Notes under the pieces: generated by a model
What the model saw: the letters and a program-made list of their open reading frames with translations, nothing else
Told to the model about the DNA's origin: nothing
Databases searched by the model: none
Position numbers and translations under genes: made by a program
Shown: piece after piece, positions 28,304-30,939 of the stretch
How positions within the stretch are numbered: position 1 is the first letter of the stretch
Layout: the number at the start of each line of letters is the position of its first letter
Assembly (NCBI RefSeq): GCF_002924445.1
Contig: NZ_PIGG01000081.1
Coordinates: forward strand, 62,001 to 126,000
Direction: 5' to 3'
Length of the DNA stretch: 64,000 bases
From: Minwuia thermotolerans
GTDB lineage: Bacteria; Pseudomonadota; Alphaproteobacteria; Minwuiales; Minwuiaceae

Positions 28304-29116
28304 TCAGGCCGGCAGGCGCATCTTCAGTTGGTGCGCGACGTCGAACAGGCGCTCCTGCGGCATGCCGCCGATGACCATGTAGCCGAAGCCGTCCTCGACC
28401 CAGTGGACTACGCCCATGTCGTTGCGGGTCTCGAAGCTCTCCGGCGCGGGTTCGTTGCCTGACGGAATGACGCAGAATGACACCGGGATGCCGTCGGCGC
28501 TGAGAAAGGCAAACTGGATCAGCGGCTTGCCGTTGAATCGCAGCACCTGCACGCGTCGGAAATTGAGCTCATCCGTGTTCTGCGCCAGCCGTTTCAGCTC
28601 CAGGCCGACCGTGGCGCTTGCCAGCTCGATACCGGAATCGCCGCCCTGATAAGGCGTGAGGGATTCGGTCGTGAACAGGCTCTGGTAATCTGCGACGGCC
28701 TGTCGCCAGCCGCGCTCAGCCGGCGCTTCGACCGGCGCGGTCCGGGCCACTTCGCCCGGTTCCGGCTGCAACAGTATGCCGCCGGCGAAGCCGCCGACCA
28801 GAGCCAGCAGGATGGCGGCCGCCGCAGCCATCGGCGCGCGGCCGCCGGCGGCGGGCGACGCGGATGCGCCGGCGCGGCGTTCGGCCTCGGCCAGCATGGG
28901 ACGCAGCCGGTCCATCGGCGCCTGCCGCTCCAGCAGGTCGAAGGCTTCACGGAAGGGCCGGTCGCCGGTGCGCAGGCGCTCCAGCCGCTGGCGCGCATCG
29001 GCCGATTCGGCGAGAGCGCGGTTGACCCGGCGGCGCTCTTCGAGCGGCAGTTCGCCATCGAGGAAGGCGACAAGCTCCTCGTCCCCAAGCATCGCATTGT
29101 CGGCACTGGCGGTCAT
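28304..29116 (-). CDS. Membrane anti-sigma factor
   Basis: A protein of 270 residues. The cytosolic N-terminus LGDEELVAFLDGELPLEERR is typical of zinc-less anti-sigma domains that bind ECF sigma factors. One membrane segment lies at about 96-115 (MAAAAAILLALVGGFAGGIL). The outer part has beta-rich segments and ends RLFDVAHQLKMRLPA. It would hold the ECF sigma at the membrane until a periplasmic signal arrives. Its ATG overlaps the sigma stop by 4 nt. The gene is intact although the upstream sigma frame is broken. Confidence 0.82.
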   Translation of the reverse strand: MTASADNAMLGDEELVAFLDGELPLEERRRVNRALAESADARQRLERLRTGDRPFREAFDLLERQAPMDRLRPMLAEAERRAGASASPAAGGRAPMAAAAAILLALVGGFAGGILLQPEPGEVARTAPVEAPAERGWRQAVADYQSLFTTESLTPYQGGDSGIELASATVGLELKRLAQNTDELNFRRVQVLRFNGKPLIQFAFLSADGIPVSFCVIPSGNEPAPESFETRNDMGVVHWVEDGFGYMVIGGMPQERLFDVAHQLKMRLPA

Positions 29117-29649
29117 TCCCGCTCGTCTTCCTCCATTGGCGGGGTCGCGGACGGCGACTCCTTCAGGCCTGCAAGCATGGATCGTGCCGTTGCAAGCCGG
29201 GACATGATGGTTCCGATGGGGACGTCCAGAATTCGCGCGGCTTCCCGGTAGGTAAACCCTTCCGCATAGACCAGGGTGACGGTCTGCCGCTGCGCTTCCG
29301 GCAGTCTTTCGACCTCAATCAACACCCGCCGCAGCAGATTATTCATTTCCATCTCGCCTTCGCCATCGGCGACCAGCGCGGTTTCGGGATCGGCGAATCC
29401 CGCCCCCTGCCGCACCCGCTCGGCGCGGAGATGATTTTTCCAGATCGAGGACAGGATGGTGAACAGTCAGGCCCGGAGGTTGGTGCCCGCGCGGTACTGA
29501 TCCCGGCGCTCAAGGGCCCGCAGGCAGGTCGCCTGCACCAGATCCTCGGCGGTCGCGTGATCACGGCTGAGCACGAGCGCATAGCGCCAGAGGCGGGATA
29601 GATTCGCCGCCAGGCCGTCGCTCACGCTTTCGTGATCATCTTCGCTCAT
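29113..29649 (-). pseudogene. ECF RNA polymerase sigma factor interrupted by an in-frame TGA
   Basis: Read through one stop, the frame gives a 178-residue ECF sigma factor. Region 2 (LWRYALVLSRDHATAEDLVQ) and region 4 (RLPEAQRQTVTLVYAEGFTY, then REAARILDVPIGTIMSRL) are complete. Codon 61 is TGA (29467-29469) inside N-L-R-A-stop-L-F-T-I, exactly where ECF factors have the conserved Trp of RAWLFTI. A TGG to TGA change at one base explains it; no frameshift is present. Either the gene is newly inactivated, the base is an error, or there is read-through. The downstream half alone could start at a GTG (29415) but would lack region 2. Confidence 0.85.
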
Positions 29650-30183
29650 AGGGTAACCGAATAGGCCGGCGGGGTGGGTTGTTGACGGGGTGACAGCTTA
29701 TCGGAGGGTGGCACATGGCGAAGATCACAAATCCCGCTTTCGCTTCGGGCCCCCTCCACGCAGTCGGCGGGCGCAATCCGGAATTGATTGATTGTTCCCA
29801 TGTCACGCGTTTCACGGCAAGCGCCGAAGGCCCTGCCGGCCAGCGCGGACCACAGGCCGGCAGCGGCGAAGGACAGAACGCGCCACCGATCGGGGTCGGG
29901 GGCGTTTCAGGCCGGCGGTATTGTTCTCACGCCCGAGTGCCGCCGGCCTGACCTTACAGAGAGCCGCTGGGTGGGACACCAACGGCCGGGCCATTGCCTT
30001 GAGACCCACCCTGCGGTCGGGGGATCACGAAATCGGTTCCGCGTGATCCCCCGATTGCCTTCCGGCCCTCGTCCCGAATCCCTGCCGGGGCGGGGGCCTT
30101 TCTTTTCCGGCGGGCGCGTTGAACGCCGCGGCCCGTGAGCGCATATCCCTGGCTGTCAGCAACGGCAGCACGGGAATTCCGCC
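29650..30183. other. Intergenic region between the sigma locus and the SpoIIAA-like gene
   Basis: This 534-nt stretch holds no gene I can support. A possible 78-codon frame at 29715-29951 has a good GGAGG Shine-Dalgarno seven bases before its ATG, but its product is low-complexity and matches nothing I know. A perfect 12-bp inverted repeat lies at 30018-30053. The sigma-factor promoter should lie just past 29650 on the minus strand; I cannot name its boxes. Confidence 0.4.
30018..30053. repeat. Perfect 12-bp inverted repeat (hairpin)
   Basis: CGGGGGATCACG (30018-30029) and CGTGATCCCCCG (30042-30053) are exact inverted repeats around a 12-nt loop. An 8-bp direct repeat ATTGCCTT occurs at 29993-30000 and directly after the hairpin at 30054-30061. 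There is no T-tract, so a simple terminator is not obvious; an operator or a small mobile palindrome is possible. Confidence 0.6.
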
Positions 30184-30939
30184 ATGTACGCCATCCTCGA
30201 CGCCCCCGACGACGTTCTCGCCATCGAGCTTTCGGGCACGGTCACGCGGGAGGACATCCAGGCCATCGAAAGCGCCTGCCGCGCCAGGCTGGAGCGGCAC
30301 GAGGCCCTCGGCCTGTTCGTGGATCTGACCGGCCTGTCCGACGTTACCGGCGACGCCATCGCCGAGGACATCCGCTTCGAGATGGAGATGCTGTCGATGT
30401 GGGAGCGTTTCCCCCATGTCGCCGCCGTCTCCGACAAGAAGTTCGTCAGCGCGATCGTGCGCTTTCTCAACCGATCCGTCGCCGCGGTCGAGTTCCGCGC
30501 CTACGATTCGGCCTCGCGGGACGCCGCGATGGCCTTCGCCTCCGACGTCCCGGCGGCGCCGGCGCAACCGCGGAAGGCGGTCCGCCGGATCGAGCCGCGC
30601 GAGGAAGGCGTGCTGGCCTTCGAGATCAATGGCCGCGTCACGCCGGGCGATATCGACACGATCGTCGGACCGCTGCGCGAAGCGACGGCCAGCGGCCGGC
30701 GTATCGACCTGTTCGTCCGCCTGCACGACTACGAGGGCTTCGATCCGGCGATGCTGGTCTCGGGCTCGCTGTTTTCGGCGAAGATCGGTGCGATCCGGCA
30801 CGTGCGCAGATACGCCCTGGTCGGGGCCAGCGACTGGATGAAGCGCGCCGTGGAGGCCGCCGAACACGTCCTGCCGATGGAAATCCGTTCATTCGACCGC
30901 GACGACGAGGATCAGGCCTGGGCCTGGCTGCGCTCCTGA
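30184..30939 (+). CDS. Tandem SpoIIAA-like (STAS-fold) protein
   Basis: A protein of 251 residues made of two similar halves. Each half looks like a SpoIIAA-like domain (PF11964 type). The first (1-115) has LAIELSGTVTREDIQAI, then LFVDLTGL and RFPHVAAVSDKKFV. The second (138-250) has LAFEINGRVTPGDIDTI, then LFVRLHDYEG and IRHVRRYALVGASDWM. Single-domain members are common and of unknown role, perhaps in lipid or anion binding. The linker is rich in Ala and Pro. The start ATG follows GGAATTCCGCC, a weak ribosome site. Confidence 0.7.
   Translation: MYAILDAPDDVLAIELSGTVTREDIQAIESACRARLERHEALGLFVDLTGLSDVTGDAIAEDIRFEMEMLSMWERFPHVAAVSDKKFVSAIVRFLNRSVAAVEFRAYDSASRDAAMAFASDVPAAPAQPRKAVRRIEPREEGVLAFEINGRVTPGDIDTIVGPLREATASGRRIDLFVRLHDYEGFDPAMLVSGSLFSAKIGAIRHVRRYALVGASDWMKRAVEAAEHVLPMEIRSFDRDDEDQAWAWLRS

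Follow-up and report, generated by a model that had tools for sequence, protein, structure and literature searches.

Nonsense mutations in genes for alternative sigma factors are known from E. coli. In the available part of one report, rpoS is interrupted by an amber at codon 33 in certain K-12 lines, and one isolate has a stop at its codon 243 (PMC2700278). The locus described here resembles these alleles in that a single base change places a nonsense codon in an alternative sigma gene of some strains only. It differs in that rpoS encodes the sigma factor of the general stress response and the codon-33 allele is a TAG, whereas here a TGA stands at a tryptophan codon of a small ECF sigma factor gene, which moreover has a probable anti-sigma partner.

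Two further systems are close. The first is the operon of an ECF sigma factor with its membrane anti-sigma factor: our locus likewise pairs a gene encoding sigma regions 2 and 4 with an overlapping partner that has one hydrophobic segment, but its sigma gene is interrupted, and its partner lacks the HxxxCxxC motif and matches the anti-sigma models below their cut-offs. The second is insertion of Trp at UGA by a near-cognate tRNA in bacteria, which would return the ancestral residue here too; for the present locus it would be an extension from E. coli reporters, as they appear in the available part of PMC11126739. A limited literature search found no title about the case itself.

The interrupted sigma gene and its partner

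The window is a stretch of 64,000 nucleotides of Minwuia thermotolerans (contig NZ_PIGG01000081.1, positions 62,001 to 126,000). The features of the sigma locus are as follows.

29113..29649, minus strand: ECF sigma factor gene, 178 codons plus stop, with a single interruption (translation, Pfam, NCBIfam, comparison with genome G006 of the same genus)
29467..29469, minus strand: TGA in frame as codon 61, where region 2 has a conserved Trp (a Trp codon in G006)
29470..29649, minus strand: truncated product predicted from the translation, 60 residues, part of sigma region 2
28304..29116, minus strand: open gene overlapping the sigma stop (ATGA), probable membrane anti-sigma factor (position, sub-cut-off models, hydrophobic segment)
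29113..29415, minus strand: candidate product restarted at a GTG, 100 aa, region 4 alone (ORF, Pfam)
29113..29352, minus strand: candidate product restarted at the ATG of codon 100, 79 aa, region 4 alone (purine-rich upstream sequence)

The sigma frame runs from an ATG at 29649 to a TGA ending at 29113 and contains exactly one internal stop, the TGA at 29469-29467, in the context LRA*LFTI. When this TGA is read as Trp, both domains that define an ECF sigma factor, regions 2 and 4, are found within one short protein and in a single frame: Sigma70_r2 at residues 15-78 (E 1.4e-13) and Sigma70_r4_2 at residues 113-159 (E 2.1e-12). The same read-through protein scored 72.6 bits against the NCBIfam model TIGR02937, whose cut-off is 42.9, and the 24 other NCBIfam models among the matches listed all stayed under their own cut-offs. 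Sequences of solved structures gave 9 distinct matches at E 1e-8 or better, which we take to include Mycobacterium SigH and E. coli sigma-E, and in both structure alignments listed a Trp lies opposite codon 61. An uninterrupted frame is what the window copy lacks, and five orthologues of the genus have it. A chance frame is ruled out, because the gene is also present, and open, in G006, from which the window copy differs by 17 synonymous and 3 amino-acid changes. The preliminary description of this DNA, made from the letters alone, had reported a sigma frame intact except for a TGA at the Trp of codon 61; translation and domain matches confirm it. The G006 gene also supports the companion proposal of a single base change at a conserved Trp, gene and downstream partner being otherwise intact.

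The downstream gene (29116-28304) had been described as intact and coupled, and it is indeed open, its start sharing the sequence ATGA with the sigma stop. Adjacent and co-oriented, it has what is expected of an anti-sigma partner, a membrane segment, in the form of one strongly hydrophobic stretch at residues 98-116. Its scores against anti-sigma models were 21.4 bits for zf-HC2 (cut-off 22.2) and 21 for NF052375 (cut-off 100). Position and these below-cut-off matches suggest that it is probably the anti-sigma factor. It differs from its G006 counterpart by 28 synonymous changes and 6 replacements. A pattern search for a promoter of the GGAAC/CGTT type, on the strand of the gene and in 590-base stretches of six genomes, found none.

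Codon 61 in relatives and the age of the stop

Among 40 homologous loci, 39 were matched to the sigma protein. Opposite codon 61 these have 35 Trp, 1 Tyr and 1 Ser, one locus being uncovered there and the last being the window copy with its stop; Trp is thus found in 35 of the 37 other homologous stretches that cover the codon. The 35 include two paralogues from the genome of the window itself, and the Tyr locus is a third paralogue.

Six other genomes of the genus (G001-G006) were compared. Open sigma orthologues were present in five of them, all with Trp at codon 61: the nearest relative compared, G006, has the gene at 98% identity, and G001-G004 have it at 71-72% identity, in each case with no stop. 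G005, which is 89% complete, gave a distant sigma match alone (E 4.7e-7) among the matches listed. A more distant orthologue, in G048, likewise has Trp. Comparison with close strains, the check proposed earlier, therefore returned Trp in G001-G004 and G006 and the TGA in the window genome alone; an unshared lesion with open orthologues in close relatives is the picture of a recent pseudogene or nonsense allele.

At least six matches in other relatives were flagged as containing one TGA, and six were fetched to ask whether TGA recurs at this Trp. It did not in the five that aligned, all of which have Trp at codon 61; in three of these a stop occurs at query residue 165-167, and the aligned part of the other two is free of stops. 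For the sixth (L049), no alignment to the sigma protein was obtained. A scan of genome contigs returned 41 loci, of which one was close, in the Minwuia sp. MAG JARGNO010000027.1 (72% identity). The 13 plasmid records retrieved each covered 17% of the query at most, and viral contigs contained no match to a 33-base pattern around the codon whose final base could be A or G.

Between the window and G006, 21 codons of the sigma gene differ, namely 17 synonymous changes, 3 replacements and the stop, for 137.3 synonymous and 396.7 non-synonymous sites. With G001-G004 as outgroups, P18S and T54A were assigned to the window branch, the latter less surely as position 54 varies, and L159P to the G006 branch. 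Had the gene been free of constraint throughout, about 24.6 replacements would be expected on the window branch, assuming that half of the synonymous divergence falls on it. The 2 observed have a 95% upper bound of 6.3, which corresponds to about 26% of that branch. Because 2 replacements were seen against about 25 expected, any loss spans, by these counts, at most about a quarter of the window branch, and constraint held until recently. This constraint is ordinary, since the replacement to synonymous ratio of the gene (0.20, once each number is raised by half a count) ranks 41st lowest among 115 genes of the contig, whose median is 0.24. As judged from these substitutions, the sigma gene, if dead, died recently; a sequence error or a gene still in use would look identical.

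Stops elsewhere on the contig were counted by comparing contig C81 (183 kb) with the matching part of G006, over 157,550 aligned bases; 2 kb of C81 were absent. Genes were picked from ORFs of at least 80 aa by third-position excess, ORFs that failed being dropped, which left 136 G006-defined and 134 C81-defined genes. Among genes of at least 150 aa, a stop was found in C81 in 1 of 115 G006-defined genes, the sigma gene, and in G006 in 3 of 114, two of these lying within 11 codons of the assumed start. Shorter ORFs, which may not be genes, added three with a stop in C81 (92, 93 and 102 aa) and three with a stop in G006 (89, 90 and 108 aa). Frameshift rows, many of them paired alignment gaps, were kept outside the count. 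From these numbers, one such lesion per contig is not unusual.

A difference of the same kind as the sigma TGA, in the opposite direction, was observed at L053:3945-4652 (C81 43945-44652), where a 235-codon frame is open in the window genome and G006 has a TGA at Trp codon 184.

Nonsense allele, sequence error and read-through

Rather than a new mechanism, the TGA appears to reflect either an error in the sequence or a loss mutation of an ordinary kind that arose recently. Most probably, in our judgement, a single base change has recently created a nonsense allele in a normal ECF sigma gene, and most of the genus genomes compared carry this gene. In the structure of sigma-H, as given in the available part of its description, the residues for promoter opening are at 85-98 (PMC6411747). 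From the structure alignment we infer that the lost part of region 2 corresponds to them, so that a stop at codon 61 would cut region 2 ahead of the promoter-opening residues and would remove region 4 altogether. The main product, of 60 residues, should then be inactive. Decoding of the UGA by a near-cognate tRNA-Trp would restore precisely the ancestral residue, and a trace of normal sigma factor might still be made; with so little of it, the product of the open, probable anti-sigma gene would have little to hold back. The expected outcome would be a silent or strongly weakened regulon in the window genome. Since strain-confined nonsense alleles of alternative sigma factors are already known from rpoS, such an allele matters little as it stands; it would nevertheless capture cleanly a sigma factor that is being lost or has only just been lost, and close relatives provide open copies for comparison.

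It is possible, if rather unlikely, that living cells of the population carry a normal gene and that the TGA is an error of base calling or assembly, or a minority allele that entered the consensus. The change is a single substitution with no second lesion and no sign of relaxed selection, all five genus orthologues are open, and the sequence comes from a draft assembly (4.9 Mb in 82 contigs, estimated 100% complete with 3.56% contamination). Weighing on the other side, the 12-kb block around the sigma gene is 95.8% identical to G006, and a good short-read consensus, if this assembly is one, seldom contains isolated substitution errors. Recent loss and base-calling error, both put forward in the preliminary description, each stand and are inseparable here. 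Its phrase “loss of the regulon” goes too far for a stop seen in one genome alone.

Alternatively, it may be that the gene works through read-through of the UGA by tRNA-Trp, the stop setting a low or condition-dependent level of sigma factor. The UGA falls exactly at a Trp codon, so the native protein would be restored, and constraint is still visible in the gene; from the substitutions, the near-absence of further decay would fit a gene still in use equally well. In the available part of the E. coli reporter study, TGA is the leakiest stop, with Trp the preferred insertion, which makes some ordinary leakage not unlikely; yet just 14 of 40 TGA reporters exceeded the threshold, so that no particular site can be counted on to leak (PMC11126739). 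UGA is not conserved across orthologues as a functional read-through site would be: none of the five in the genus carries it, all having Trp, and there is therefore no sign of selection for the TGA. Neither was a suppressor tRNA seen, the one tRNA-Trp(cca) being ordinary. We consider this reading improbable. Suppression by read-through had been among the options first listed, and what survives of it is a possible low level of leakage, as known UGA behaviour would permit; selection for read-through is unsupported.

A more specific form makes the UGA a leaky brake, with the anti-sigma gene open and sigma output following read-through as temperature, nutrients or pH change. The same E. coli source, in its available part, has reporter read-through varying with temperature and nutrients (PMC11126739). 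If the stop were leaky in such a regulated way, this would be a small new control mechanism, a prospect to which we give very little credence.

Still harder to believe is a region-4 protein restarted at GTG 29415 or ATG 29352 with a role of its own, for instance titration of the anti-sigma factor. The 100-aa open frame has a good region-4 match, and a purine-rich stretch precedes the ATG of codon 100; against this, region 2 is missing from such a product and the gene is split in none of the five genus orthologues. Re-initiation at GTG 29415 had been suggested from the first reading; the GTG is there, but the sequence upstream of it is weak (judged by eye, less purine-rich than that of ATG 29352) and its product would be without region 2.

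The search for recoding machinery gave 13 SelB matches in the draft genome, none over the cut-off, and a single tRNA-Sec model match over the cut-off, which is called as tRNA-Ser(cga), among 150 scored of 846 first-look candidates. The 11 tRNA-Sec matches listed all coincide with tRNAs named otherwise by ARAGORN, and the draft genome, with these 150 candidates scored, thus gave neither of the two components, SelB and tRNA-Sec, by which a selenoprotein is recognised. ARAGORN called 42 of 43 tRNA model matches, leaving out the weak match L164; none of the 42 has a stop-codon anticodon, and, as no tRNA-Ile was seen among them either, this list may be incomplete. The RF2 gene, prfB, has its own TGA frameshift, CTTTGAC after AGGAGG (L156:1524-1530); we take this to be the usual programmed-frameshift site of RF2, and its flag of one TGA is therefore normal. 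TGA terminates 85 of the 114 larger contig genes (at least 150 aa), which makes it a true stop here. Given that no SelB over cut-off, tRNA-Sec or suppressor tRNA was seen, that RF2 is present and that TGA ends so many genes, a dedicated or programmed recoding of codon 61 appears unlikely, and the selenocysteine and suppressor-tRNA readings are disfavoured. That TGA should encode selenocysteine here, or Trp genome-wide, has nothing but the position of the TGA in its favour, against the sole tRNA-Sec hit over the cut-off (of 150 candidates scored) being called tRNA-Ser, the lack of a SelB match over its cut-off and the use of TGA as a terminator with RF2, and can practically be dismissed.

The intergenic block upstream of the sigma gene

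A conserved block (about 29876-30061) lies between the sigma gene and a divergent gene at 30184. It can be aligned in six genomes of the genus, those of the seven compared that have the sigma gene, and a DNA search of 9 genomes of the family found it in 6, each of them a member of the genus. In G001-G004 the match covers about 29983-30059 only, at 81-83% identity. The block keeps its place beside the sigma gene, even though sequences farther upstream are not alike. Two hairpins were noted.

30013-30058: hairpin within the conserved block
30064-30098, plus strand: 13-pair hairpin followed by a T-rich tail, not conserved in the other four genomes

The consensus fold has 45 pairs, of which 7 are changed on both sides and 9 are broken in at least one sequence; most pair changes set the window and G006 apart from the remaining four genomes and so represent few events. 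Terminator-like sites on the plus strand there number 2, against 0.8 expected by shuffling. No Rfam family reached its gathering score for the element, which may represent a small RNA or a leader, on either strand.

Because the sequence past the block differs in G001-G004, the divergent neighbour may not be common to them. In the window this gene, at 30184-30939 and next to the sigma operon, has two SpoIIAA-like domain matches.
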